The position numbers and the translations under genes are program-made. Of a stretch of DNA of 37,207 bases, positions 8,079 to 22,591 are shown in pieces (position 1 is the stretch's first letter; every line of letters starts with the position of its first letter). The notes beneath the pieces were generated by a model. It did no database searches and was not told where the DNA came from. It worked only from the letters and a program-made list of their open reading frames with translations. The stretch is from Deltaproteobacteria bacterium (GTDB taxonomy: Bacteria; Myxococcota; Myxococcia; Myxococcales; 40CM-4-68-19): positions 170,923-208,129 of the forward strand of contig VBKI01000070.1 in NCBI GenBank assembly GCA_005879535.1. The letters are read 5' to 3'.

Positions 8079-8118
8079 AAGGAGGTAGCGCCAGATGCGC
8101 TACCCTTCGTCGTACTGA
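8079..8118 (+). promoter_or_regulatory. Consensus ribosome-binding site and orphan ATG for the OprD-like gene
   Basis: AAGGAGGT at 8079-8086 is a consensus Shine-Dalgarno, nine bases (counted from GGAGG) before ATG 8095. That ATG opens only seven codons before TGA 8116-8118. The porin frame is offset by one: adding a single base after the second codon would give Met-Arg-Leu-Pro-Phe-Val-Val-Leu-Ile-Leu, a proper signal peptide that runs into the porin. The site therefore marks the original start of the downstream gene. Confidence 0.7.
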
Positions 8119-8132
8119 TCCTTGGAACAGCC

Positions 8133-9398
8133 GTGCTGGCGTGGCCCGCGGTGCCCACGACGACCTCCGCCGAGGATGACCTCGAAAAGCCGCGGCCGCT
8201 GCTCGAGCGGGCATGGCCCGGGATCCGGGACGGTCGGGCGAGTCTTCCCTCCTTCCTGGGCGACACGACCCTTACCCTGCGGGCCAGGACACACTACGGC
8301 GATCTGCAGACGGTGACTCCGATCGAGAGGCAGGCATGGGCCTCGGGCGGCTGGCTCGCGTACCGATCCGGGTGGCTCCTCGACGGTTTCCAACTCGGGG
8401 CGACGTACTACGGTTCTGCGCCCGTCTACGCTCCTGCGGACAAGGACGGCAGCCTCCTTCTCGCACCGGGCCCACAGGCCTACCACGTCCTCGGCGAGGC
8501 CTTCGCCGCGCTCCGCTACCAGGAGTACGCCCTCCTCAAGGGGTACCGGCAGTTCGTGAGGCGGCCCTTCATCAACGGCCTGGACAACAGGATGACTCCG
8601 AACACTTTCGAGGGCCTGACCCTGGCGGGACAGGTTGGCCCGGCCGAGTACTTCGCCGGGTACCTGACGAAGATCAAGTTGCGCAACGGCGAGCAGTTCG
8701 TCGCCATGTCGGAGGTAGCGGGTGCGCGGGGAACTCACTACGGCGTTGCGATGTTCGACGTGACTCTCAAACCCCAGCGCGGGTTCAGCTTCAGGATTGC
8801 CGAGCAGTACGGCGTCAACACCTTCAACACCTTCTTCGGTCAGGTGGAGCAACTCTGGCCGTTGGCACACAACCTTCAGCTCCAGGTCGGAGCGCAGCTC
8901 ATGGATCAACGCGCAATTGGCGACGCCCTGGTGGCCAGGACACAAGTCAGCAAATGGGTCACGAGGAACGGGGCGGCGAAAGTCGCAGTCACCTGGCGCG
9001 ATCTCACGCTGAAAGGCGCCGCCAACGTCAACGCGTCGGGCAACAAGATCCAGGTCCCGTGGGGGGTCTCCCCCAGCTACCTTCAACTCGCTCAGCAGGC
9101 CTTCATCAATGCCAATGAGAAGGCGTGGCGCCTTGGCGTGGCCTACGACTTTTCGAACGCGAACATCGCCGGCCTCACCGCGTTCGCTGATTTCGGACGG
9201 GGCGTCGACTCGATCAATCCGGTCACGTGGGCGCGCCTGCCCGTCGAGGTGGAGTACGATCTCCGGGTGGACTACCAGCCGCCCGCGATCCCGGGACTCC
9301 GGGTTCGTCTCTGTGGCGTCATCTACGACCAGAAGGGTGCCACCCGGCTGGGCTACCAGGTTCGATCCATCGTCGACTGGGAGATCCCGCTCTTGTGA
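8133..9398 (+). CDS. OprD-family outer-membrane porin (start region frameshifted)
   Basis: The uninterrupted frame offers GTG 8133 as its first usual start, giving 421 residues. In the same frame the sequence upstream encodes 'LPFVVLILGTAVLAWPAVP', a signal-peptide core, with no ATG, GTG or TTG back to the stop at 7932-7934. With the strong ribosome site at 8079-8086 and its ATG at 8095 out of frame, a one-base loss between about 8098 and 8103 is likely. The family call rests on 'RRPFINGLDNRMTPNTFEG' (OprD proteins have a similar P-x-x-N-x-x-D-x-R-M-x-P-N-T-F-E signature), 'GWLAYRSGWLLDGFQLGATYYGS' and the strand-turn pattern throughout. OprD channels admit basic amino acids, peptides or small organic acids. 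If the frameshift is real the gene is poorly translated or dead; if it is a sequence error the gene is normal. Confidence 0.8.
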   Translation: MLAWPAVPTTTSAEDDLEKPRPLLERAWPGIRDGRASLPSFLGDTTLTLRARTHYGDLQTVTPIERQAWASGGWLAYRSGWLLDGFQLGATYYGSAPVYAPADKDGSLLLAPGPQAYHVLGEAFAALRYQEYALLKGYRQFVRRPFINGLDNRMTPNTFEGLTLAGQVGPAEYFAGYLTKIKLRNGEQFVAMSEVAGARGTHYGVAMFDVTLKPQRGFSFRIAEQYGVNTFNTFFGQVEQLWPLAHNLQLQVGAQLMDQRAIGDALVARTQVSKWVTRNGAAKVAVTWRDLTLKGAANVNASGNKIQVPWGVSPSYLQLAQQAFINANEKAWRLGVAYDFSNANIAGLTAFADFGRGVDSINPVTWARLPVEVEYDLRVDYQPPAIPGLRVRLCGVIYDQKGATRLGYQVRSIVDWEIPLL

Positions 9399-9408
9399 GC
9401 GACGCGAA

Positions 9409-12006
9409 TCACGGCGCCTGAGGCGAACTCGGCGCCGGCAGGCCGACGCGGCGCACGAGGTCCTTGAAGCGCGGGTCAGAGCGAAGCGGGTCGAGCAATG
9501 GGTCCACGTTCAGCCAGACCATCCGATCGAAACGTTCCTGATAGGCCCTCTCCAGATGGGCGAAGGCCTGGTCTTTGTCGCCGAGGCCTGCATGGGCCCA
9601 GATCAGCCCGAAGGGCGACACCGATCCGGTTTTCTCCGCTTCGATCCGGTTCAATTCGCTCATCACCTTCAGCGCCTCGTCCCGCTGGCCCGCCCGCGCG
9701 TACGCATGCGCCAGCGCTCCGAGAAGGAGCGGTTGCCCGCGGTTGAGGAGCACGGCTTTTTGAAGTTCTGCGATGGCCGGCTGGTAATTGCCCTGAGTCA
9801 CGTGAGCCCTGGCGAGCGCCAGGCTCGCGTCGGGATAGGTCGGATCCAGTTCCAACGCCTTTTGCCAGGACGCCATTGCTTCTTCGATCCGCCCGACGAA
9901 GAAGTAGGCCGCGCCCGCCCAGGTGTTGACGAGCGGTGACGTCGGATCCACTTGCTGGGCGCGCCTGGCCTCGGCAACGGCTTCGTCGAAGCGCTGCATT
10001 GCATAAAGGTACATGGCGTACGAGATGCGACCCGCGGCATAGCTGGGATTCAGCTCGATGGCGCGACGATATTCCCGCTCCGCGCCCGCCCAGTCCCACT
10101 GCTGCTGTGCCAGCCTGGCCAGGATCGTGCGCGGTTCCGCGAGAGTCTCGTCCAACGCGAGGGCTTTTTCGCTCCACTTCCGGACGTGGACACGATTCTC
10201 CTTCGGGTATCGCGTCAACGCCGCCGCGCGAGGCTGCTTGGTGTAAAGCTCGGCCATACCCGCATAGGCGGAAGCGTAGCCCGGATCTCTTTCGATTGCC
10301 TTCTCGAACTGTTCCTTCGCGCTCATCCAAGTTGTCGGCGTCATCGTTTTCGAGAAATAAGCGCGGCCCTGCAGGTAGGCCTGGTACGCTTCCGACTCGA
10401 CACGTCGTGAAGTCGCGAGGCGTACCTGTTCCGGCCTGGTCACCTTCACGCGGATCCGGCTCGCCACGTCGCGGGCCACCCCGGACTGCACGGAGAGGAC
10501 GTCCCGCAGATCGAACTGATAGCTCTCTGCCCAAAGATGGCGCTCGGGAGACGCCTGGACCAGCTTCACCGTGATGCGTACTGTCTCTCCGCTCGAGTAG
10601 AGCACGGCGCCTTCGAGAAATGCGTCGACCGTGAGCTCCCGGGCAATTTGCGGCAACGGCATCGAGGTTTGCCGGTACCTGATCACCGACTGGTACGAAA
10701 GCACTTGCAGTGCGCCGATCCTGCCAAGTTCGGTGATCAGCGCCTCCGTCATCCCGTCCACGAAGTAGTCCTGCTGCGGATCGCCGGAGAGGTTCTTAAG
10801 TGGGAGCACCGCAATCGAGGTGATGTCGAGTGGGGCCCCTCCTCTGTTCCATTCCATGTTAGCCACGACGAGCGCGATCGCGGCAATCGCCAACGTGGCC
10901 GGCACGAGGAAGCGACGTCGCGAAGTGCGTGCCCCAGGCGTCAGCTGCTCGAGCAACCTGTCCATCGAGTCGTAGCGGTCTGCGCGATCTGGACTCAATC
11001 CTCGCAGGAGCACGCAGCGTAGCCACGACGGGACCCGGCTCGATGCCGGCCGTTCCTTGACTCTCCGCCGCTCCATTTCCTCCAGGAGCGAGGCGACGGT
11101 CTCGCCAGCGAACGGCAACTCGCCGTACAGCGCGTAATACAAAGCGACGCAAAAGCTGAACTGGTCCGCGCGCGCATCGCCCGATTCCCCCTTCAGCTGC
11201 TCAGGCGCCATATAAGGCGGAGTACCGAGAAACGTTCCCGGCAGGGTGACGGCGGCCGCGAGCAAGGGGACACGCGGCGAGCGTGTCGCCTCTCCTTCTG
11301 CTGGCGCACCGGCAGACTGCGGCAGCTCCCCAGCAACCCTCATTGCCCGCGCCAGCCCGAAATCGAGAACGCGTGCCCTGCCGTCCTCCCCGACCCAGAC
11401 GTTGTCTGATTTGAAATCCCGGTGGACGATATTCTTGGCGTGCGCTGCCGCCAGGCCCCTTCCGGCCTGCGCGAACATGCTCGTGATTTCTCGCCAGGAT
11501 CGTTCCCTAGCAGCGAGCCATTCGCCGAGCGTGCTCCCTTCGATGTACTCCATGGCGATGAAGACCTGGTCTTCGACCGTGCCCACGTCGTGGATCGCGA
11601 CGACGTTCGGGTGCGTCACCTGCGCCATCGCCTGCGCCTCGCGCAGGAGCCGTGCCTTGCCCAGGTCCATTCCTCCCGACGCCGGACGGACCAGCTTGAT
11701 GGCGACCTTGCGGCCGAGCTCAGGATCGTAGGCGGCGTACACCACACCCATGCCGCCGCTTCCCAGCTCTCGCTCGAGCAGGTAACGGCCTACGGGCGCC
11801 GTGAGCCGGTCCGCGACGATTTGCGCAGCAGGCTCGTCGAGAAAGTTCCCGACCTTCGCATCAGAGGCAAGAAGGGACTCCACTTCCCGGCGCAAATCAT
11901 CGTCTCCCGAGCAAGCCCGGTCGAGGAACTCCGTCCGCTCCCTCTGGTCCTGGTCAAGCACCAGCGTCGCCAGCTGCTCGACCTGCCGGAAGCGTTCCGG
12001 CGTCAT
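9409..12006 (-). CDS. Transmembrane Ser/Thr protein kinase with TolB-like and TPR periplasmic region
   Basis: An 865-residue protein. The ATG at 12006 shares an ATGA with the sigma-factor stop, so translation is probably coupled. Residues 1-70 are the short helical leader often seen in kinases beside ECF sigma genes. The kinase domain (about 73-355) has GSGGMG at 82-87, the VAIK lysine 104, HRDFKSDN at 195-202, DFG at 215-217 and the TPPYMAPEQ segment at 262-270. The activation segment is long (about 50 residues, Pro/Ala-rich). One membrane helix lies at about 366-384. Residues 393-530 ('ITSIAVLPLKNLSGDPQQDYFVDGMTEAL') form the TolB/FlgO-like domain seen in CadC-type regulators, and about 530-850 are TPR repeats. 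The C-terminal half is closely paralogous to the regulator at 14661-16649. Likely role: membrane receptor that phosphorylates the adjacent sigma factor or another partner; the partner is inference. Confidence 0.93.
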   Translation of the reverse strand: MTPERFRQVEQLATLVLDQDQRERTEFLDRACSGDDDLRREVESLLASDAKVGNFLDEPAAQIVADRLTAPVGRYLLERELGSGGMGVVYAAYDPELGRKVAIKLVRPASGGMDLGKARLLREAQAMAQVTHPNVVAIHDVGTVEDQVFIAMEYIEGSTLGEWLAARERSWREITSMFAQAGRGLAAAHAKNIVHRDFKSDNVWVGEDGRARVLDFGLARAMRVAGELPQSAGAPAEGEATRSPRVPLLAAAVTLPGTFLGTPPYMAPEQLKGESGDARADQFSFCVALYYALYGELPFAGETVASLLEEMERRRVKERPASSRVPSWLRCVLLRGLSPDRADRYDSMDRLLEQLTPGARTSRRRFLVPATLAIAAIALVVANMEWNRGGAPLDITSIAVLPLKNLSGDPQQDYFVDGMTEALITELGRIGALQVLSYQSVIRYRQTSMPLPQIARELTVDAFLEGAVLYSSGETVRITVKLVQASPERHLWAESYQFDLRDVLSVQSGVARDVASRIRVKVTRPEQVRLATSRRVESEAYQAYLQGRAYFSKTMTPTTWMSAKEQFEKAIERDPGYASAYAGMAELYTKQPRAAALTRYPKENRVHVRKWSEKALALDETLAEPRTILARLAQQQWDWAGAEREYRRAIELNPSYAAGRISYAMYLYAMQRFDEAVAEARRAQQVDPTSPLVNTWAGAAYFFVGRIEEAMASWQKALELDPTYPDASLALARAHVTQGNYQPAIAELQKAVLLNRGQPLLLGALAHAYARAGQRDEALKVMSELNRIEAEKTGSVSPFGLIWAHAGLGDKDQAFAHLERAYQERFDRMVWLNVDPLLDPLRSDPRFKDLVRRVGLPAPSSPQAP

Positions 12007-12578
12007 CCCGGTCTCTCTTCCCCGAGCTCGCGATACAGCCACGCTCTCGCCCAACGCCACTCTCGCTTGATCGTCCTGGAAGAGAGGTCGAGGAGCCGGC
12101 CGATTTCCTCGACGCTGAGACCTCCGAAGTACCGCAGCTCGACGATCTGCGCCTTCCGTGGATCGAGTGTGGCAAGGCGGCTCAGCGCCTCATCGACGGC
12201 GACGACTTCAGCAGTCCTCGGTTCCGAGATCTGGTCCGCCTCGCTGAGCGAGACCCTCAGCGGGTTGCCCCCGCGCTTCGCGTACCTGCGCCGGCGCGCG
12301 TAATCGACCAGCACGGATCGCATTGCGTGCGAGGCCACGGCGAAGAAATGCGCTCGATTCTTCCATCCCGTTCCCTGCGGATTGACCAGCTTTAGATACG
12401 CTTCGCCAACCAGGTCGGCTGTTTGCAGGGTGTGGCCCTGGCGTTGGCCAGCGAGGTGACGCCGGGCGAGTAGTCGCAACTCTTGATAGACCAGCGGGAC
12501 GAGCTGGTTCATCGCGGCTTCGTCCCCGCTTTCCAGGGTCGCGAGCAGCGCGGTGACCTCTGATACCGGGGCCACCAT
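12003..12578 (-). CDS. ECF-family RNA polymerase sigma factor
   Basis: A 191-residue sigma factor with regions 2 and 4 only. Region 2 spans about residues 8-100 ('LVYQELRLLARRHLAGQ', 'TADLVGEAYLKLVN', 'RAHFFAVASHAMRSVLVDYARRR'), and region 4 about 128-185 ('DPRKAQIVELRYFGGLSVEEIGRLLDLSSRTIKREWRWARAWLYREL'), given here in pieces of the recognition helix. This is the ECF subgroup typically encoded next to Ser/Thr kinases in Acidobacteriota and Myxococcota. No anti-sigma factor is adjacent; the overlapping kinase probably takes that regulatory place. The ATG at 12578 has GGGAGG six to seven bases upstream. The gene diverges from a PD40 lipoprotein gene across 133 bp, a natural place for an autoregulated or sigma-dependent promoter. 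Confidence 0.94.
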   Translation of the reverse strand: MVAPVSEVTALLATLESGDEAAMNQLVPLVYQELRLLARRHLAGQRQGHTLQTADLVGEAYLKLVNPQGTGWKNRAHFFAVASHAMRSVLVDYARRRRYAKRGGNPLRVSLSEADQISEPRTAEVVAVDEALSRLATLDPRKAQIVELRYFGGLSVEEIGRLLDLSSRTIKREWRWARAWLYRELGEERPG

Positions 12579-12711
12579 GAGCAGCCTCCCTCACGCCGCG
12601 GTCGTAGCACATCCGGGCGCCGCCCGACAGATCGGCCGCGGACCGCAAGAAGCCGAGCGGCGCGATGTCACCTTTCAGGCGGGTTTCACGTTCTCCCTGT
12701 GGGAGGCAATC

Positions 12712-13683
12712 ATGTCACAGACGCAAATTCGAAACCTGGGCGCGCTCGTTCCTCTCGTCTTCGGGCTGGCGTGCACGGGTGAAGTCTCAACCCCCGCCGA
12801 TCAACTCGTGCCCGAGTCATCGGCCCTTTCTTTCGCCAACTCCGAGTGGTCCGGCGCAACGAACCTCGGAGAAGTCAATTCTACCTTCAACGAGCAGAAT
12901 GCGTTCTTGTCGAAAGACGAGCTGACGCTATACTTCAGCTCTGACCGTCCCGGTGGCCTCGGCGGTCTCGACATCTGGGTCTCTCGCCGTGCGTCGGTCG
13001 ACAGCCCCTGGTCGCCTCCGGTGAATCTCGGACCGCCGATCAATACGTCGAGCGCAGACTTTGCCCCGAACCTGTCGATTGATGGTCACCTCCTCTTTTT
13101 CTCCAGCTTCCGGCCTGGCGGGCAAGGCATGAGCGACATCTACATGTCCCGGAGATCCGATCCGAACGATGACTTCGCCTGGGAGAATCCGGTGAACGTT
13201 GGATCGCCGATCAATACGCCGGACGCCGAGAACGCACCCTTCTATCTCCAGAATGCCGAGGACGGATCGGCGAATCTGTACTTCAATCGCGGGCAGAACG
13301 CCGCGCAACAGGCCAACATCTACTACGCCTCGGTGACGCGAGAAGGTGAGGCACAGGGTCCCGTAGTCTTCGTCGCGGAACTGAACGACCCGGCGGTCAA
13401 TGACGCGGCCGTGACCATTCGGAAGGACGGCCGAGAGATGTTCTTTGGGTCACCAAGAGCAGGCTCCGTCGGCGGCAACGACATCTGGACGTCTACACGA
13501 CAAAGCATCCACGACCCGTGGAAGACGCCGACCAATGCCGGACCACCGTTCAATACCGTGTTCAACGACCTCACACCGACCCTTTCGTTCGACGCTCGTA
13601 CGCTCATTTTTGCCTCCAATCGGCCGGGAGGATTGGGCGGGAATGATCTCTGGATGTCTACACGGACACGGAGCGGCAAATGA
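12712..13683 (+). CDS. PD40 (WD40-like) repeat lipoprotein A
   Basis: A 323-residue protein from ATG 12712, with GGGAGG five bases before it; the longer frame upstream is not used. The N-terminus 'ALVPLVFGLACTGEV' is a lipoprotein signal with Cys at the GLAC site. The rest consists of five propeller units with the PD40 signature, such as 'LYFSSDRPGGLGGLDIWVSRR', 'FFSSFRPGGQGMSDIYMSRR' and 'LIFASNRPGGLGGNDLWMSTR', alternating with 'PxNLGPPINT' linkers. PD40 propellers (TolB type) are protein- or glycan-binding modules. The gene is the first of a pair and overlaps the next by ATGA. It faces the ECF sigma/kinase operon and is the best candidate for its target or ligand partner (inference). Confidence 0.88.
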   Translation: MSQTQIRNLGALVPLVFGLACTGEVSTPADQLVPESSALSFANSEWSGATNLGEVNSTFNEQNAFLSKDELTLYFSSDRPGGLGGLDIWVSRRASVDSPWSPPVNLGPPINTSSADFAPNLSIDGHLLFFSSFRPGGQGMSDIYMSRRSDPNDDFAWENPVNVGSPINTPDAENAPFYLQNAEDGSANLYFNRGQNAAQQANIYYASVTREGEAQGPVVFVAELNDPAVNDAAVTIRKDGREMFFGSPRAGSVGGNDIWTSTRQSIHDPWKTPTNAGPPFNTVFNDLTPTLSFDARTLIFASNRPGGLGGNDLWMSTRTRSGK

Positions 13684-14624
13684 TTCGGACAATCGCAAGG
13701 TGGCCGTCCGTGTATCGAACCCTGATTGGACTCACCACGCTGGTCTTCGCCGCATTTCCGCTTGCCGCAGCGCCCCGGTATTCGGAGTGGTCGGCGCCAC
13801 AAAACCTCGGGCCCGCGGTGAATTCTCCATTCTCTGAACTTGGTCCGGCCATCTCGAAGGATGGGCTCAGTCTCTACTTCGCCTCGAACCGGCCAGGCGG
13901 GTCTGGCGCCTTCGACATCTGGGTCTCGCAGCCTCGGTCGACTCCCCATGGGAGCCGCCGGTGAACCTTGGTCCTCTGGTCAATACCACCGCGAACGAGA
14001 GTGTGCCGTCGCTGTCCCGCGACGGCCATTGGCTTTTCATCAAGAGCACCCGTCCAGGAGGTCTTGGAAGCGTCGACATCTGGGCTTCCTACCGCTTCGA
14101 CAAGCACGATGACTTCGGCTGGCAGCCATCCGTGAACCTCGGGCCGGGAGTGAACTCCGCGTTCAGCGAACAGGGCGCGAGTCTTCTCGAAAACGACAAT
14201 GACGGCAGGCCGCTCCTCTACTTTGGCAGCGACCGCCCTGGCGGCATGGGTGGCAGCGACATCTACGTCAGCGAACAGATGCCGGACGGATCCTTTGGTC
14301 CTGCGATTCTCGTCCCGCAGCTCAGCAGTCCAAACAACGACCAGCGCCCAGTGCCTCGCTTTGACGGACTCGAACTGTTCCTCTTCTCGGATCGGCCCGG
14401 CTCGCTGGGCGCCACCGACATCTGGGTGTCGACGCGCGAGAGCGTCCATGACTCCTGGTCTACCCCGGTCAATGTTGGCGCTCCGGTCAATAGCGAGTTC
14501 AACGATGCCCAGGCCTACCTTGCATCCGATCGGCGAGACCCTCTTCTTCGTATCGAATCGTCCCGGAGGTTCTGGAGACTTCGACCTCTACGTGACGACC
14601 CGAACCAGAACGCGGGGGCAGTAG
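13680..14624 (+). pseudogene. PD40 repeat exported protein B, disrupted by two compensating frameshifts
   Basis: This gene starts at ATG 13680 inside the ATGA shared with protein A, with a Sec signal ('LIGLTTLVFAAFPLAAAP'). The frame fails near 13930: after 'FDIWVSQ' the reading runs into TGA at 13962-13964. The continuation 'SVDSPWEPPVNLGPLVN' is in the frame one base earlier, implying loss of one base. That second frame codes clean PD40 units up to about 14528 ('NSEFNDAQAYLASD'). The end of the protein ('GETLFFVSNRPGGSGDFDLYVTT', stop 14622-14624) is back in the first frame, implying one extra base, probably a C at about 14530. Corrected, the product is about 314 residues and resembles proteins A and C throughout. 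The preserved coding quality between the two breaks suggests recent change or sequence error. Confidence 0.8.
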
Positions 14625-14660: not shown

Positions 14661-16649
14661 TTACCGCCGCGGAGACGAAGCGAGCGTGGGCAGGCCGACG
14701 CGGCGCGCGAGGTCCGCGAAGCGCGGGTCGGAACGTAGCGGCTCCAGCAATGGGTCGACGTTGAGCCAGACCATCCGGCCGTACCGCTCCTGGTAGCACT
14801 TCTCCAGCAAGGCGAATGCCCGCTCTTTGTCGCCCAAGCCCGCGTACGCCCAGATCAGTCCGAACGGGGTGTAGCCCCGTTCCTCGAGGTCGATCCGGTT
14901 CAATTCGCCCACCAGATTCAGGGCTTTCTCCCGGTGCCCGGCCCGCGCATACGCGTGCGCCAGCGCGCCCAGCACAAGCTGTTGCCCTTGGTTGAAGGTC
15001 AGCGCCCGTTCAAGCTCTGCGATGGCTTCCTCATACTTCCCCTGCATCAAATGGATCCTGCCGAGCACGACGCTGGCGTCAAAGAAACTGGGGTCCAGTT
15101 CCAATGCCTTCCGCGCGGATGCGACCGCTTCCTCGGCGCGCCCGGCCGCAAAGTACGCGCCCCCTGCCCAGGTGTTGACGTGCGCCGAGGCCGGATCCAG
15201 CTGCTGGGCGCGCCTCGCCTCGACGACAGCCTCCTCGAAGCGCTGCATCGCATACAGGTACATGGCGTACCAGGTGCGGGCAGTCGCATGGCTCGGGTTG
15301 AGCTCGATGGCGCGCCTGAACTCGCGCTCGGTGCCCGACCAGTCCCAGTCCTGCTGTGCGGCCCTGCCCAGCACCGCGTGCGCATCGGCGAGCGTCTCGT
15401 CCAGCTTGAGGGCTTTTTCACCCCACTGTCGCGCCTGAAGGCGCGCGTCGAAGCTCTTGCGCGTCTTGCCCCTGTGACGGATGTAAAGCTCGGCGAGGGC
15501 AGCGTACGCGGGAGCGTACGCGGGATCCTTGTCAATCGCCTTCTCGAAGTATTCCTGCGCCTTGTTCCAACTCGTCTGTGTCGCCGTCTTGGACAGGTGA
15601 GCGCGACCGAGCAAGTACGCTTCGTAAGCTTCCGAATCGACCGGTCGCGGAGTGGTGAGGCGCATCCGCTCCCCCGGCGTCACCTTCACACGGATCCGCC
15701 TGGCCACGTCCCGCGCTACTTCTCCCTGCACGCCGACGACGTCGCGCAGATTGAACTCGTAGCTCTCTGCCCACAGATGCCGTTCAGGAGACGCCTGAAT
15801 CAGATTGGCCGTGATGCGAACTCTCTCTCCGGAGTGGAACACGGAGCCTTCCAGGAATGCGTCCACCTTGAGCTCCCGCGCAATCTGCGGCAGGGACTTC
15901 GCGGTTTGCCGGTAGCCGATCATCGATTGGTACGAGAGCACTCGCAGCGCGCTGATCTTCCCGAGCTCGATGATCAGTGCCTCCGTCATGCCATCCACGA
16001 AGTATTCCTGTTGGGCGCCGGCCGAGACGTTCTTCAGTGGCAGCACGGCAATGGAAGTGACGTGGACTGCTCCTGGTCCGCCGACCATCTGGTCGCGCAC
16101 TCCGCCGACATTGAGTGCGAGGACGAGCAGAACGAGCAGCAGGGCGAACATGACGACGGCAGCCGCGCGACGCCGACTCCACGAGGCCGCTGGCTGACGA
16201 ACCTTAGAGGCATCCTCCAGACCGCCGGGGAGTGCGAGGATTGGCGCGCCGTTCATCGGGGCAATGATGGTGGCGACAGGCGCCCCGTTTACCGGGACGG
16301 ACGTGTCGACGATGGCGCCGTTGACTGGATAGATGAAGCGATACCCGCGACGCGGCAGGGTCTCGATGAACCGCGGGGTGTCGGCCGAATCTCCGAGCGC
16401 TTCCCGCAGCTTGTTGATCGTCGTGTTGATGCTGTGATCGAAGTCCACGATCGTCCCGGCCCAGAGCTTCTGCTTCAACTCCTCGCGCGTGACGAGCTGG
16501 CCGGGTTGTTCCAGGAGCACTGCCAGGACTTGCAGGGGTTGCTCCTGGAGTCTGATTCTGACTCCCTTCTTGCGCAGCTCTCCTGCCCGGAGATCGACCT
16601 CGAACACCCCGAACCGAACGACCTGCGGGGTGTCGGCTACATCCGCCAT
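14661..16649 (-). CDS. CadC-like winged-helix transmembrane regulator with TolB-like and TPR domains
   Basis: A 662-residue protein. I chose ATG 16649, which has AGGAG six bases upstream; the frame also opens at TTG 16655. Residues 12-108 are an OmpR/PhoB-type winged helix ('GELRKKGVRIRLQEQPLQ', 'VLLEQPGQLVTREELKQKLW', 'SINTTINKLREALGDSADTP', ending 'RRGYRFIYPVN'). A linker with three 'NGAxV' repeats follows, then a membrane helix at about 162-180. From residue 197 ('VTSIAVLPLKNVSAGAQQEYFVDGMTEAL') the TolB-like domain and TPR array are nearly the same as in the kinase at 9409-12006, down to the last motif 'VWLNVDPLLEPLRSDPRFADLARRVGLP'. Such one-pass proteins bind DNA directly on a periplasmic cue. 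It diverges from the Cys-rich lipoprotein operon across 344 bp and probably controls it (inference). Confidence 0.93.
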   Translation of the reverse strand: MADVADTPQVVRFGVFEVDLRAGELRKKGVRIRLQEQPLQVLAVLLEQPGQLVTREELKQKLWAGTIVDFDHSINTTINKLREALGDSADTPRFIETLPRRGYRFIYPVNGAIVDTSVPVNGAPVATIIAPMNGAPILALPGGLEDASKVRQPAASWSRRRAAAVVMFALLLVLLVLALNVGGVRDQMVGGPGAVHVTSIAVLPLKNVSAGAQQEYFVDGMTEALIIELGKISALRVLSYQSMIGYRQTAKSLPQIARELKVDAFLEGSVFHSGERVRITANLIQASPERHLWAESYEFNLRDVVGVQGEVARDVARRIRVKVTPGERMRLTTPRPVDSEAYEAYLLGRAHLSKTATQTSWNKAQEYFEKAIDKDPAYAPAYAALAELYIRHRGKTRKSFDARLQARQWGEKALKLDETLADAHAVLGRAAQQDWDWSGTEREFRRAIELNPSHATARTWYAMYLYAMQRFEEAVVEARRAQQLDPASAHVNTWAGGAYFAAGRAEEAVASARKALELDPSFFDASVVLGRIHLMQGKYEEAIAELERALTFNQGQQLVLGALAHAYARAGHREKALNLVGELNRIDLEERGYTPFGLIWAYAGLGDKERAFALLEKCYQERYGRMVWLNVDPLLEPLRSDPRFADLARRVGLPTLASSPRR

Positions 16650-16993
16650 CGGCAACTCCTGCTCGTCGGCGGAACTCTAGCACTTTCGTCGCACGTCATC
16701 GAAGGCGCGCCGGGAAGTGACTTCGGCTTGTATCTCCTTGGATATCAACGGTTTTCCAGATGACCCACGTTTGAGTCGCCGTGCATCGATCTGCCGCTTC
16801 AAGGCAGGCATGTCGGCACCTGGACCCGATTTTTGGAAGGGGACAGCCATGAACCACGAAGCGAGATTCTCTGTTGCCCTCGTCGTCGCGACCGCCGGAT
16901 TGACACGACAACGGCCCGTTCAAGTCGGCACCGGACGGGACGCTCGTACAGATGCCTTGATTCCAACCAGCCGCGTCGGGCGGGAAGGCTGAT
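16650..16993 (+). other. 344-bp divergent regulatory interval
   Basis: This interval lies between the wHTH regulator and the Cys-rich lipoprotein gene and must hold both promoters. The only frame of note is 47 codons, ATG 16849 to TGA 16992, with a weakly hydrophobic start ('ARFSVALVVATAG') and no recognisable continuation. It could be the remnant of an exported protein or a leader ORF. GGAAGG at about 16982-16988 is the ribosome site for the next gene. I see no convincing -35/-10 pair or operator repeat. Confidence 0.4.
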
Positions 16994-18373
16994 ATGAAGA
17001 ATACGGTCATTGCATTTCTGCTGCTGTCGGTCCTGGCTTGCTCTCATTCCGAGTTCGACGATGTAACCACCGCGACGATCGGCGCCGGTGGTGGCACCGT
17101 GAGCCTCGCGGACGGGACCGCAATCGAAATCCCGGGCGGGGCGCTATCGCGCGACACCGAGATTACGATCCTCCGCAGTTCGGAGGGCACGTGGTTCGGC
17201 GGCGACCTGTCTGCGGTCAGCCCGCTGTACGAGTTCCGCCCGGACGGGACGACCTTTGACAAACCGATCGTAATCACCTTGGCGTTCTCGCCGGAGCTGA
17301 TGCCGGCAGGCGGCGACATCCGGATCATGACCGCGCCGGCCGGCAGTTCGGCCTTTACGGAGCTGCCGGCCGAGATGGTGGGCGACAACCGCGCGCGTGC
17401 GTCGACCCTGCTCCTCTCGAACATCGTGGTGGCGAACAAACCGTCGAGCTGCCACGGCAATAGTCCATGCAACGATGGCAATGCGTGCACCTTCGACGAC
17501 CGGTGCGTGAACGGGCAGTGTCGCGGCACGCCTTACACCTGCGACGATGGGAATGTCTGCACCAACAACGTCTGCGACGGCGCGGGCGGATGCAGCTTCC
17601 CGCCCAATACCGCTCCGTGCAACGACGGCAACCTCTGTACCCGCAACGACACGTGCGCCAACGGGGTCTGCTCGGGAACCCCGTTTACCTGCGACGACGG
17701 CAACGTCTGCACCAATGACGCATGCAATGGCTCGGGGTGTACTTTCACGCCCAACGCCGCCTCTTGCGACGACGGCAACCTCTGTACCCGCAACGATACC
17801 TGCGCCAACGGCGTGTGCGCGGGCATCGCGTTCACCTGCAACGACGGCAACGTCTGCACCGACGACGCCTGCAACGGCACGGGATGCACCTTCGCGCCCA
17901 ACAGCGCTCCTTGCGACGATGGCAATGCCTGCACGAGCAATGACACGTGCTCCGGCGGCGTCTGCCGCGGTGGTTCAAGCAGTTGCTGCTCGCCCGGGCC
18001 GGAAACGAACTGCACGAACGGCATCGATGACGACTGTGACGGTCTCATCGATGGCGCGGATCCGGACTGCCAGTCAACCTGTGTGCCAATTCCGGAGCAG
18101 TGTTCCAATGGCGTCGATGATGATTGTGACGGCCTCGTCGATTACGAGGATCCCGATTGCGTGCTGATGGAGTGCACGGACGGCTGCCCATACGGCTACG
18201 GCTGCTTCCCGGACAATTACTGCCACAGTCACTGCGAGGACGGGGCGCCCGACTACGACGAGAGCGCCTCCGATTGCGGCGGTGCCGACTGCCCGCGGTG
18301 CCAGGCTGGTCAGCATTGCTTCAGCGGTTTCGACTGCGCTTCCGGCAACTGCGTCAACAACATCTGTCAGTAG
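16994..18373 (+). CDS. Cys-rich lipoprotein with ZU5-like domain and two MopE-type motifs
   Basis: A 459-residue lipoprotein. The signal 'FLLLSVLACSHSE' has a good lipobox with the lipidated Cys at residue 16. Residues 27-145 ('TIGAGGGTVSLADGTAIEIP', 'GGALSRDTEITIL') resemble a ZU5-type beta domain. Residues 154-330 are about 3.5 tandem units of 49 residues with the pattern C[ND]DGNxCTxxDxCxNGxCxGTPFTCDDGNVCT. Two metal-binding MopE-type motifs follow: 'NGIDDDCDGLIDGADPDC' at about 341-358 and 'NGVDDDCDGLVDYEDPDC' at about 370-387. The tail has 'GADCPRCQAGQHCFSGFDC'. MopE motifs are known to bind copper or calcium-like ions. The protein is expected to be a disulfide-stabilised surface protein. 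It is the first gene of a pair with PD40 protein C. Confidence 0.85.
   Translation: MKNTVIAFLLLSVLACSHSEFDDVTTATIGAGGGTVSLADGTAIEIPGGALSRDTEITILRSSEGTWFGGDLSAVSPLYEFRPDGTTFDKPIVITLAFSPELMPAGGDIRIMTAPAGSSAFTELPAEMVGDNRARASTLLLSNIVVANKPSSCHGNSPCNDGNACTFDDRCVNGQCRGTPYTCDDGNVCTNNVCDGAGGCSFPPNTAPCNDGNLCTRNDTCANGVCSGTPFTCDDGNVCTNDACNGSGCTFTPNAASCDDGNLCTRNDTCANGVCAGIAFTCNDGNVCTDDACNGTGCTFAPNSAPCDDGNACTSNDTCSGGVCRGGSSSCCSPGPETNCTNGIDDDCDGLIDGADPDCQSTCVPIPEQCSNGVDDDCDGLVDYEDPDCVLMECTDGCPYGYGCFPDNYCHSHCEDGAPDYDESASDCGGADCPRCQAGQHCFSGFDCASGNCVNNICQ
17461..17960 (+). repeat. In-gene tandem repeat, 147-bp period (49 codons)
   Basis: The Cys-rich part of the lipoprotein gene repeats at DNA level: GGCAACCTCTGTACCCGCAA occurs at 17627 and again at 17774, 147 bp apart, with neighbouring units more diverged. 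About 3.5 units are present. High identity between the two middle units points to recent duplication or gene conversion, and copy number may vary between strains. Confidence 0.75.
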
Positions 18374-18386
18374 GAGAGGAGCTCCA

Positions 18387-19376
18387 ATGAAGATGAGAAA
18401 CGTTTTCGCTCTGGTGGCTCTATCCAGATGCCGAGTCCTTTTGCTAGTCACGCTCGCCTTCCTCGTCGCTTCCAAAGCCGAGTCTGACCAGCCCAACTGC
18501 ACTTCCGCGTGGTCGGAACCGGTGAATCTCGGACCGCCGGTCAACTCCTCGTTCTTTGATTCAGCCGCGACGCTCTCACCCGACGGACTCAGTCTCTACT
18601 TCGTTTCCAGGCGGCAGCCGGGCGGGAAGGGCCTTACCGACATCTGGGTCTCCCAGCGTGAGTGTTCCGATTGTCCCTGGGAGGAGCCCTTCGATTTGGC
18701 AGTCGTCAACAGTGCCGCCGAGGACGGGGGACCGTCGCTTTCCACGGATGGCCACTTGCTGTTTTTTCATAGCTCCCGTCCCGGCGGGTACGGCGGCGTC
18801 GACATCTGGATGTCGCGCCGCGACAACCCGAACGATGACTTCGGGTGGCAACCGCCGACGAACCTGGGTCCTGACGTCAACACGGAGAAAAGTGAATTCG
18901 TCCCGGACTACATACAAAGCGCTGATTTCTACCTGGAGCGAACTCGACACGTTCCTGCAGACGCAGCCGCTCTGTACTTCAGTCGAGGACCCGATTTGAA
19001 CAATCAGGATATCTACACGGTACCGATCACGCGTAACGGCGAGACGCTCGGTCCGGCGGTTCGCGTCGACGAGCTCGATTCGCCGGCGAACGACGCATCC
19101 CCGTCCGTACGTACCGATGGGAAGGAAGTCCTGTTCTGGTCGACTCGCCCACCGGGTGCGCCGGGATCCGGCGATATCTGGGTTGCGACGCGCAGAACTG
19201 TCCACGAGCCCTGGTCCACGCCCGAGAACGTCGGACCGCCCGTGAACACAACCTTCAACGACGTGCGGCCGAACCTGTCGCGTAGCGGTCGGACGCTGCT
19301 GTTCGACTCGAATCGTCCAGGCGGCCTCGGCGATCAGGACATCTGGATGTCGACACGAGTGCCCGGCTGTCGCTGA
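18387..19376 (+). CDS. PD40 (WD40-like) repeat exported protein C
   Basis: A 329-residue protein from ATG 18387, preceded by GGAGAGGAG; 13 bp separate it from the lipoprotein stop, so the two form an operon. The N-terminus 'RVLLLVTLAFLVASKAES' is a Sec signal without lipobox Cys. The body carries PD40 units ('LYFVSRRQPGGKGLTDIWVSQ', 'FFHSSRPGGYGGVDIWMSRR', 'LFWSTRPPGAPGSGDIWVATR' and 'LLFDSNRPGGLGDQDIWMSTR') and aligns along its length with proteins A and B, including the 'DNPNDDFGWQPPTNLGPDVN' region. Proteins A, B and C are clear paralogues split between two divergent regulator modules. A ligand or receptor role at the envelope is inferred. Confidence 0.87.
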   Translation: MKMRNVFALVALSRCRVLLLVTLAFLVASKAESDQPNCTSAWSEPVNLGPPVNSSFFDSAATLSPDGLSLYFVSRRQPGGKGLTDIWVSQRECSDCPWEEPFDLAVVNSAAEDGGPSLSTDGHLLFFHSSRPGGYGGVDIWMSRRDNPNDDFGWQPPTNLGPDVNTEKSEFVPDYIQSADFYLERTRHVPADAAALYFSRGPDLNNQDIYTVPITRNGETLGPAVRVDELDSPANDASPSVRTDGKEVLFWSTRPPGAPGSGDIWVATRRTVHEPWSTPENVGPPVNTTFNDVRPNLSRSGRTLLFDSNRPGGLGDQDIWMSTRVPGCR

Positions 19377-19393
19377 CACACGCACGTTCTGCT

Positions 19394-19465
19394 TTGAAGG
19401 GAATCGTCGGCTTCGAGACCGGTGAGTTCTTCGTCGACACCGAGGGCAATCTCACCCCGCTGTAG
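19394..19465 (+). pseudogene. Short 3' gene remnant
   Basis: A frame ending at TAG 19463-19465 reads 'LKGIVGFETGEFFVDTEGNL' then TPL. It has no ATG/GTG start or ribosome site and begins right after the PD40 gene. It looks like the C-terminal tail of a lost gene between the intact operon and its decayed copy. The family is not recognised. Confidence 0.3.
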
Positions 19466-19534
19466 ACGCGGTCGACGCCCACGATCAGCGCGGCCCCGAA
19501 TTACGACTGGGTCTGCTCGAAGAGAAGGGCTGAT

Positions 19535-19925
19535 ATGAAGAATATGGTCATCGCATTTCCTGCAGCAACGGGATCGATGATGATTGTGACGGCCTCATCG
19601 ATGGCGCGGATCCGGACTGCCAGTCAGCTTGCCAGCCATATGAGGGCTTCTGTTTTAACGGCGTCGACGACGATTGCGACGGGCTGATCGATTTTGCCGA
19701 TCCCGACAGCGTGTTGCAGCCGTGCGGGGCCGACGAGTGCGCGTACGGTATCTCTGCTTTGGAGATTTCTTCGGCCACAGCCATTGCGAAAATGGCGCTC
19801 CGGACTACGACGAGAGCGCCTCCGATTGCGGCGGTGCCGACTGCCCGCGGTGCCAGGCTGGTCAACATTGCTTCAGCGGTTTCGACTGCGCTTCCGGCGA
19901 TTGCGTCAACAACATCTGTCAGTAG
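19535..19925 (+). pseudogene. Internally deleted copy of the Cys-rich MopE-type lipoprotein gene
   Basis: The first ~25 bases (GCTGATATGAAGAATA and onward) match the start of the gene at 16994, including bases before the ATG. After eight codons the sequence jumps to the MopE region, skipping about 1 kb and losing frame. In the second frame it reads 'NGIDDDCDGLIDGADPDC' and 'NGVDDDCDGLIDFADPDS'. Near 19760-19780 it shifts again, and the last frame gives 'HSHCENGAPDYDESASDCGG' through 'CASGDCVNNICQ' and the stop at 19923-19925. Three frames are needed, so no functional product is possible from ATG 19535. The homology continues past the stop into the next intergenic junction. Confidence 0.85.
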
Positions 19926-19961
19926 GGCAGGACTCCAATGAAGACGAGAAATTGCGACTGA
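19926..19961 (+). pseudogene. Truncated start of a fourth PD40 gene copy
   Basis: GGACTCCAATGAAGACGAGAAA here matches GAGCTCCAATGAAGATGAGAAA before and in PD40 gene C (18380-18401), so the duplicated block once carried the second gene. The copy codes only MKTRNCD before TGA 19959-19961, four bases from the convergent DUF4344 gene. The homology stops at about 19951, which marks the breakpoint. Confidence 0.7.
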
Positions 19962-19965
19962 GCGT

Positions 19966-20628
19966 TCAACGCTTCTCCCAGCGCGCCTTGTGCTTCTCCC
20001 TGGTCCGCGCCCAGGTCTTCGCATCCATGCTCGGGTCGATCAGCTTTCGAGCCGCGTACGAGACCTGCAAATACTCCTCGGCGCAGGACTCGGCGCGGTC
20101 TTTCGGGAGATAGCCTTTCTCCACTATCCCGCGGAAGGCCGTTGGATTGCTGCCATGGGCCATACAGAGCATGTTGTAGAACCGCTGCGAATCGAGCCCG
20201 TGAACGTCGGAGAAGTCGGTTTCGTCGGGCATGCGGCCCGCGGCGTCGTGCAAGTACATCCAGGCGGCGCCGACCAGCACGCGGCGGGCGACTCCCTCTC
20301 CGGCCCGGAGCAGCATGAAGGCAGCCAACTGGTCTGCAGCGTCCTCTTCCCGGCCCAGGATGGGGACCCTGAGCCGATCGAATAGCGCGTGGGAGATCTC
20401 GTGAAGCAGAACGAAGACGACGGCTCCGTCCCGGGCGAGGTCGGACGGGATGCCGTGGATCGGGGCATCGTGCTCCGGGTTCTTTGGCGGTTCGTAGCTG
20501 CCGTGGAACATCGACCGGACGGGCGAGGGCACTGTCGCGGTTGCCGGCAGCCCGGTGCCGGCGACGGCGACACCTGTCGCCAGCAACGAGGCGATCATGA
20601 CGGAGATTCCGAGTCCGGGCCTCACCAT
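19966..20628 (-). CDS. DUF4344-type putative zinc metallopeptidase, exported
   Basis: A 220-residue protein from ATG 20628; the longer frame to 20814 has no plausible N-terminus. A Sec signal is seen at 1-23 ('GISVMIASLLATGVAVAG'). HEISH at residues 76-80 is an HExxH zinc motif, and 'GREEDAADQLAAFMLL' at about 92-107 provides the acidic third-ligand region seen in DUF4344 proteins. The C-terminus ('YLPKDRAESCAEEYLQVSYA') holds the conserved 'DRAxxCxxEY' segment of that family. The domain before HExxH is shorter than usual for the family. The substrate is unknown. It is divergent from korA across 184 bp, in which I see no clear signal. Confidence 0.8.
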   Translation of the reverse strand: MVRPGLGISVMIASLLATGVAVAGTGLPATATVPSPVRSMFHGSYEPPKNPEHDAPIHGIPSDLARDGAVVFVLLHEISHALFDRLRVPILGREEDAADQLAAFMLLRAGEGVARRVLVGAAWMYLHDAAGRMPDETDFSDVHGLDSQRFYNMLCMAHGSNPTAFRGIVEKGYLPKDRAESCAEEYLQVSYAARKLIDPSMDAKTWARTREKHKARWEKR

Positions 20629-20812
20629 GGCCCGGTACTGCACGCACCGCGCCAAGATCGGCACGCCATGACGCACTGCGGCCCATCGCGCAGTGCGCTG
20701 CGGTTGACTGTGATCGCGCGGTCCCTTAAGTGTCCGGTTCGGCTCGGACCGGCGCTGTACGGTTTGGGCGGCGCCGGAGTGATGAACTCCCCCGCAGCAA
20801 CCCCGAAGGTCC

Positions 20813-22591
20813 ATGCCTCACATCGACTTCGCAGTCGGCATCGGCGGAGCCGCCGGCCAAGGCGTCGCGACGCCCGGCAACATCCTAGCGAAGCTGTTCG
20901 CCCGCCGCGGCCTCCACGTCAACGCCTACAACGCGTACCAGTCCATCATCCGCGGCGGACACACCTTCCTCACCATCCGCACCAGCGAGAGGCCAGTGCG
21001 CTGCTTGGGCGACGACCTCGCCATGCTCATTCCTCTCAACCAGGACACGATGGACCGGCACCTCGAGCGGATGCGCGCCGGCTCGGCCGTGCTGTACGAC
21101 GGCGATCGCGTCAAGCCGGGCGCTGCGGCAGAGGGTGTCCAGCTCTGTCCGTTGCCGCTCGCGCAGCTCGCGAGGAACCTCCTTTATTACAACACCGCGG
21201 CGGTCGCTGCCGTCCTTCGGCTCGTCGGCGTCGAGCTGAAGCCGTTCGAGGAGATGCTCGCCCAGCAGTTCGAGCGGAAGGGCGACGCGGTGGTGGCGGA
21301 AAACGTCACCGCCGCGCGCGCCGGCTACGACTATGCAGGTGCGCACTTCAAGCCCTACGCCTTCTCGCTTCCGGACACCGGCAAGCGTCTGGCTGTCGCC
21401 ACCGGCAACGAGAGCCTGGCGATGGGCGGCGTCGCTGCCGGCGTGAAGTTCTATTGCGCTTATCCGATGAGCCCCTCGACCGGCGTCCTGATGTGGATGG
21501 CGCGGCATGCGCGCCAGCTCGGCATCATGGTGCGGCAGGTCGAGGACGAGCTCGGCGTGATCAACATGGCCATCGGCGCCGCGCACACCGGATGCCGCGC
21601 GATGTGCGCCACTTCCGGCGGCGGATTCGCGCTCATGACGGAGGCGCTCGGAGCGGCGGCGATGATGGAGATCCCGGTCGTCTGCATCAACGTGCAGCGC
21701 GCCGGACCCGCGACCGGCGTTCCCACGAAGACCGAACAAGGCGACCTCTGGCAGGTGCTCGGCGCTGGGCAGGGCGATTATCCCCGCATCATCGCCGCGC
21801 CCACCAGCATCCGCGACTGCTTCCACCTCGTACCGGAGCTCTTCAACCTCGCCGACAAGTTCCAGTGCCCCGGCATCGTGCTCGCCGATCTGCTCGAGTC
21901 TGAAGGATCCTCCACCTTCGAGCCCGGGGAGCTCGATTTCAACCCTCCGCGCGACCGCGGAGAAGTGATCGGCCTGAACGGCGAGGTGCCGGAGGTCGAC
22001 GGCGGGTACAAGCGTTACAGGATGACCGGGAGCGGCATCTCGCCGCGCGCGGTGCCGGGGACACCGGGGCACGCTCACGTCGTGGCCACCGACGAGCACG
22101 ACGAAGACGGCGTGCTCATCAGCGACGAATTCACCGACCCGCACAAGCGGCAGGCGATCATGGAGCGGCGCGGCCGCAAGATGGACGGCGTCCTGCCGCT
22201 GCTCGCGCCACCGCGCTTCACTGGACCGGGTGACGCCGAGGTGACACTGGTCGGATGGGGATCCACGGAAGGGGTCATCGACGAAGCCGTCGAGCAGCTC
22301 GCCGAGCGCCGCATCGTCGCGAACCATCTGCAGATCCGCTGGCTGGTGCCGCTGCAGACGGAAGCGATCGCGCGCGCTCTCTCCGGCGCGCGCAATCTCG
22401 TCGTCGTGGAGAACAATTACAGCGGCCAGTTCGCGCGCTACTTGCGCGCGGAGACCGGCATCGCGGCCGACGCATCCATCCGCAAGTACGACGGCGAGCC
22501 GTTCCTGCCCCACCACGTGGTGAACGGCGTGGAGAAGATCCTCGCCGGTGTGACGACGAAGTACGTGCCGGTTCACGAAATCCGGGTCTGA
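20813..22591 (+). CDS. korA: 2-oxoacid:ferredoxin oxidoreductase, fused gamma-alpha subunit
   Basis: A 592-residue protein. Residues 1-180 are the gamma domain ('GIGGAAGQGVATPGNILAK' with 'NAYNAYQSIIRGGHTF'). Residues 190-420 are the alpha/pyrimidine-binding domain ('GNESLAMGGVAAGVKFYCAY', 'PMSPSTGVLMWMA', 'QVEDELGVINMAIGAAHTG', 'TSGGGFALMTEALG'). About 480-592 form the transketolase C-terminal-like domain ('VTLVGWGSTEGVIDEAV', 'VVVENNYSGQFARYLR'). This is the two-subunit KorA type, which with KorB converts a 2-oxoacid (usually 2-oxoglutarate), CoA and oxidised ferredoxin to acyl-CoA, CO2 and reduced ferredoxin, in the cytoplasm. No ferredoxin gene is adjacent. Upstream GAAGGT is a modest ribosome site. 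Substrate preference for 2-oxoglutarate is inferred from the fused arrangement. Confidence 0.93.
   Translation: MPHIDFAVGIGGAAGQGVATPGNILAKLFARRGLHVNAYNAYQSIIRGGHTFLTIRTSERPVRCLGDDLAMLIPLNQDTMDRHLERMRAGSAVLYDGDRVKPGAAAEGVQLCPLPLAQLARNLLYYNTAAVAAVLRLVGVELKPFEEMLAQQFERKGDAVVAENVTAARAGYDYAGAHFKPYAFSLPDTGKRLAVATGNESLAMGGVAAGVKFYCAYPMSPSTGVLMWMARHARQLGIMVRQVEDELGVINMAIGAAHTGCRAMCATSGGGFALMTEALGAAAMMEIPVVCINVQRAGPATGVPTKTEQGDLWQVLGAGQGDYPRIIAAPTSIRDCFHLVPELFNLADKFQCPGIVLADLLESEGSSTFEPGELDFNPPRDRGEVIGLNGEVPEVDGGYKRYRMTGSGISPRAVPGTPGHAHVVATDEHDEDGVLISDEFTDPHKRQAIMERRGRKMDGVLPLLAPPRFTGPGDAEVTLVGWGSTEGVIDEAVEQLAERRIVANHLQIRWLVPLQTEAIARALSGARNLVVVENNYSGQFARYLRAETGIAADASIRKYDGEPFLPHHVVNGVEKILAGVTTKYVPVHEIRV

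Follow-up and report, generated by a model that had tools for sequence, protein, structure and literature searches.

Probable pseudogene remnant of a second lipoprotein–PD40 operon with a mosaic pattern of divergence in an uncultured bacterium

The segment at 19526–19951 of the window (the whole stretch of DNA that was analysed, 37,207 nt) is probably a pseudogene remnant of a second lipoprotein–PD40 operon, which would have arisen by doubling of the intact operon next to it (copy 1) and would then have diverged, exchanged sequence with its neighbour and decayed. Its core is strongly diverged from that of copy 1, whereas its 3′ coding end is nearly identical. The features concerned are collected in Table 1.

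Structure and coding state of the remnant

Alignment of the remnant with the copy 1 operon gave a broken collinear diagonal beginning ∼150 nt past the PD40 stop codon of copy 1, in agreement with the original prediction of a partial copy lying directly after the intact operon. In addition to the short 5′ block (Table 1), the aligned blocks were 18010–18175 versus 19560–19725 (76% identity), 18176–18195 versus 19729–19748, 18197–18380 versus 19749–19932 (86% identity) and 18382–18400 versus 19933–19951 (18/19 identical), and the main block as a whole (copy 1 18010–18400) showed about 81% identity to the remnant. A chance match was excluded by the Blast E-values (1.7e-99 for the main block and 2.7e-8 for the 5′ block), together with the same strand and the same order in both copies. 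The missing interior, which had been put at about 1 kb, was measured as 991 nt. A microhomology of 4 nt (CTGC, plus an additional C) where the deletion was joined was too short for any conclusion. At the 5′ side, similarity ceased ∼9 nt before the ATG, and no significant homology was found between the upstream regions of the two copies; at the 3′ side, the PD40 homology stopped after about five codons, ∼15 nt short of the end of the convergent DUF4344 gene. A promoter and terminator scan returned counts no higher than in shuffled sequence, and no further copies were found when the whole genome was searched. Between the PD40 stop of copy 1 and the remnant, a short coding-like stretch was observed at 19395–19466 (GIVGFETGEFFVDTEGNLTPL, ending at a stop codon), which may be the last part of a further gene since lost.

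Table 1. Positions of the intact operon, the remnant and neighbouring features in the window (L058 is a contig of a close relative)
Feature	Position	Strand	Basis
Second decayed PD40 gene, frameshifted	13700..14624	+	tblastn matches in two alternating frames; fragments
Copy 1 Cys-rich putative lipoprotein gene, intact	16994..18373	+	ORF, 459 aa; Pfam PF00526, PF00791; NF033662
Copy 1 PD40 beta-propeller gene, intact	18387..19376	+	329 aa; Pfam PD40 1.2e-21; L058 protein 91% identical
Remnant 5′ block: ribosome site and codons 1–8 of the second lipoprotein gene	19526..19559	+	31/34 identical (3 differences) to 16985–17018
Deletion junction	19559..19560	+	Copy 1 17019–18009 (991 nt) without counterpart; alignments
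Remnant acidic double-disulfide repeat segment, frame 2	19560..19748	+	Mostly strongly diverged from copy 1; NF033662
Frameshift by loss of 1 nt compared with copy 1	19748..19749	+	Alignment
Remnant C-terminal tract to stop	19801..19925	+	3.2% different from copy 1; Fisher test against core; probable gene-conversion tract
Remnant intergenic ribosome site and second PD40 gene start	19926..19951	+	Alignment
Convergent DUF4344 putative metallopeptidase gene, bounding the remnant	19966..20814	-	Pfam PF14247 7.4e-39

When the remnant was translated, three frames were needed, as had been predicted: the start codons were in frame 0, the Asp/Cys repeats were in frame 2 (CSNGIDDDCDGLIDGADPDCQSACQPYEGFCFNGVDDDCDGLIDFADPDS) and the C-terminus was in frame 1 (GHSHCENGAPDYDESASDCGGADCPRCQAGQHCFSGFDCASGDCVNNICQ, ending at a stop codon). 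The shift from frame 2 to frame 1 corresponded to the 1-nt deletion near 19748, and the PD40 start translated as MKTRNCD followed by a stop. The predicted loss of the last Cys in the motif DFADPDS was likewise found, as a Cys to Ser change (TGC at 18158 to AGC). With three frames, the internal gap and the 1-nt deletion, the reading frame is destroyed, and the remnant is a dead gene pair that gives no useful product.

The intact putative lipoprotein contains a ZU5-like domain, Dicty_CTDC repeats and acidic double-disulfide repeats, with a ZU5 match barely over its Pfam cut-off. With NF033662, the NCBIfam model of the acidic double-disulfide repeat (curated cut-off, 41 bits), the intact protein scored 42.1 bits and the remnant 46.2 bits; both pass, like members of that family. 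Unlike MopE-type proteins, the intact lipoprotein gave no match to the Pfam MopE motif PF11617, and the remnant scored 24.1 bits, under the cut-off of 27. The name “MopE” given originally is therefore a loose label, and a small correction is made here in that the intact protein fits NF033662 and not Pfam MopE. In a literature search, no paper combining MopE and Myxococc- was found.

Divergence between the two copies

When the two copies were compared over the core (18077–18248), 60/171 sites differed (35%), with differences at 28/56 third codon positions, whereas over the last 125 coding bases (18249–18373, the 3′ tract) 4/125 sites and 3/41 third positions differed. The contrast in third positions between core and tract gave P = 6e-6 in a Fisher test for which the boundaries were set after the alignment had been inspected. 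The longest identical run between the copies was 62 nt, a length equalled in 0.015% of permutations, and the minimum of 5 differences per 140 columns was reached in 0/20000 permutations.

On the contig VBCL01000547.1 (L058; 3079 nt, labelled Betaproteobacteria), the PD40 gene and the end of the lipoprotein gene are present and share 94% DNA identity with those of the window. Copy 1 and L058 differed at 5/172 sites in the core (3%) and at 3/125 sites in the tract (P = 1.0), and since this divergence is equal in core and tract, the tract is not simply slow-evolving. Among the three-way informative sites, 61 separated the second copy from copy 1 and L058. Judged from these alignments, the split between the cores of copy 1 and the second copy is much older than that between copy 1 and L058. 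Elsewhere in the order, matches to the tract were few and only 79–85% alike over 39–48 nt, which likewise speaks against slow evolution of the tract. The silent sites are thus far more alike in one tract than in the core, the pattern by which gene conversion is recognised, and the likeliest reading would be that the copies separated long ago and that the 3′ tract was exchanged with copy 1 afterwards, in either direction.

The core of the second copy retained its motif and frame, which indicates that the gene had probably been functional, though diverged, until decay set in. Amino-acid changes in the core were found in 19/51 aligned codons as against 31.7 expected for random placement (0/5000 trials were as low), in a test that compares both copies, so that the branch of copy 1 may account for half of the changes in the core and the second copy is not isolated; constraint on copy 1 contributes to the result. 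Given that amino-acid changes were few and that the NF033662 score of the remnant matches that of the intact protein, much of the divergence probably took place while the gene was still coding. These sequence comparisons suggest that the decay of the second copy was comparatively recent.

Relatives and alternative origins

None of the six genus mates that were searched carried the lipoprotein gene, G002 giving just partial repeat and domain matches, and three genus mates have only a distant PD40 relative (39–53% identity). A search for intact second copies, along the lines originally proposed, found none in any relative covered (genus mates, L058 and the order), and in L058 the 1.78 kb that follow the PD40 gene contain no remnant. 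The sequence found there was an integrase fragment followed by a TPR gene; the fragment, a C-terminal one (L058:1329–1874), lies directly 3′ of the PD40 gene. A stretch of about 412 nt in the downstream DNA of L058 matches the genus mate G006 at 96%, and the Betaproteobacteria label is therefore probably a binning error. In G001 and G004 the POR gene is kept and similarity ends at about 20703–20743, with different genes there in each; from this change of sequence and the absence of the lipoprotein gene from the mates, the POR-side region is variable in the genus. In G004, a TPR regulator gene was also observed divergent to an adjoining PD40 gene (L054:1606–4259), with no lipoprotein gene between them, an arrangement that resembles the regulator at 14661–16655 of the window, which adjoins its operon.

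Import from another strain of a homologous but diverged operon, brought beside copy 1 through shared ends and then decayed, is a less likely explanation of the second copy. It would agree with a core far older than the split between copy 1 and L058, and the region looks mobile or unstable, as judged by the missing lipoprotein gene in the six mates, the POR-side break in G001 and G004 and the integrase fragment of L058. However, no donor was found: among 145 genomes of the order, copy 1 was the only long match of the remnant, and when the order was searched at the DNA level for a source of the diverged core, only short motif-level matches of at most about 79 nt were obtained. Moreover, the adjacency of the copies, with the same order and strand, is most simply explained by tandem duplication. 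Searches of viral contigs with the lipoprotein returned distant repeat-protein matches only, and no tRNA genes that might serve as an integration site were found in the window or in L058.

A simple duplication followed by deletion, as originally predicted, is very improbable if taken as recent, with a core that changed rapidly through chance or selection. It fits the adjacent, collinear copies and the 3% difference of the 3′ tract, and loss of DNA by deletion from a second copy of the operon is well supported, but it leaves the mosaic unaccounted for, since an old core and a young 3′ tract stand side by side, and fast amino-acid change alone would not yield such uneven divergence at third positions. 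An assembly artefact, in which sequence of a strain variant was joined wrongly at a repeat common to both, is scarcely to be expected even in a draft genome of 118 contigs, given that the longest exact shared repeat is short for a read-supported misjoin and that a misjoin alone would not account for the 1-nt frameshift together with an internal deletion whose ends match.

It is extremely doubtful that the remnant acts as a silent donor, which by recombination through the well-matched ends would pass its diverged core to the expressed surface lipoprotein and thereby vary that protein between cells; the shape of the remnant is the only support for this idea. As described in PMC11499132, the vls silent cassettes of Borrelia are similar in having truncated non-coding lipoprotein segments beside an intact gene, with a variable core and well-matched ends. 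They differ in that they form an array, whereas a single remnant is present in this genome, in that their DNA identity is about 90% as against 65% for the core here, and in that the remnant includes the start of the next gene. Silent cassettes are recognised by their number and by shuffled expressed alleles between strains; L058, the single relative and sole other allele compared, carries the core of copy 1 unshuffled. The literature on silent cassettes and gene conversion offered general parallels only.

Proposed history of the locus

In the preferred reading, that of a duplicated, partly converted and decayed operon, the order of events is inferred to be as follows. The operon would have doubled in tandem, the likely origin of the second copy, well before copy 1 and its L058 counterpart split. 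Both copies would have remained coding while their cores diverged. Recombination between the neighbours would then have replaced the second copy's 3′ tract by that of copy 1, or the reverse. Finally, the second copy would have died by the ∼1 kb deletion inside the lipoprotein gene and the 1-nt frameshift, and nearly all of the second PD40 gene would have been lost, as far as the point where the DUF4344 gene ends.

The remnant resembles pseudogenised tandem duplicates with partial gene conversion in its adjacent collinear arrangement, internal deletion, frameshift and homogenised tract beside a diverged core, although the tandem event is deduced here and no intact second copy was seen in the relatives searched. 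It is an ordinary kind of pseudogene, and the process is not new. Because a duplicate that looks recent can be old in its core and young at its end, its age is not readable from one stretch.

Within the window, an open PD40 gene (12553–13683) directly precedes the decayed PD40 unit listed first in Table 1, and L059, from a Gemmatimonadetes MAG, shows a run of several PD40 matches next to one another (8082–10877). On these grounds, the gain and loss of copies at PD40 loci looks recurrent, and the second decayed PD40 gene supports the earlier proposal that this surface locus expands and contracts. The remnant is a small but clear record of how, in an uncultured bacterium, a locus for a putative surface protein gains, mixes and loses copies.
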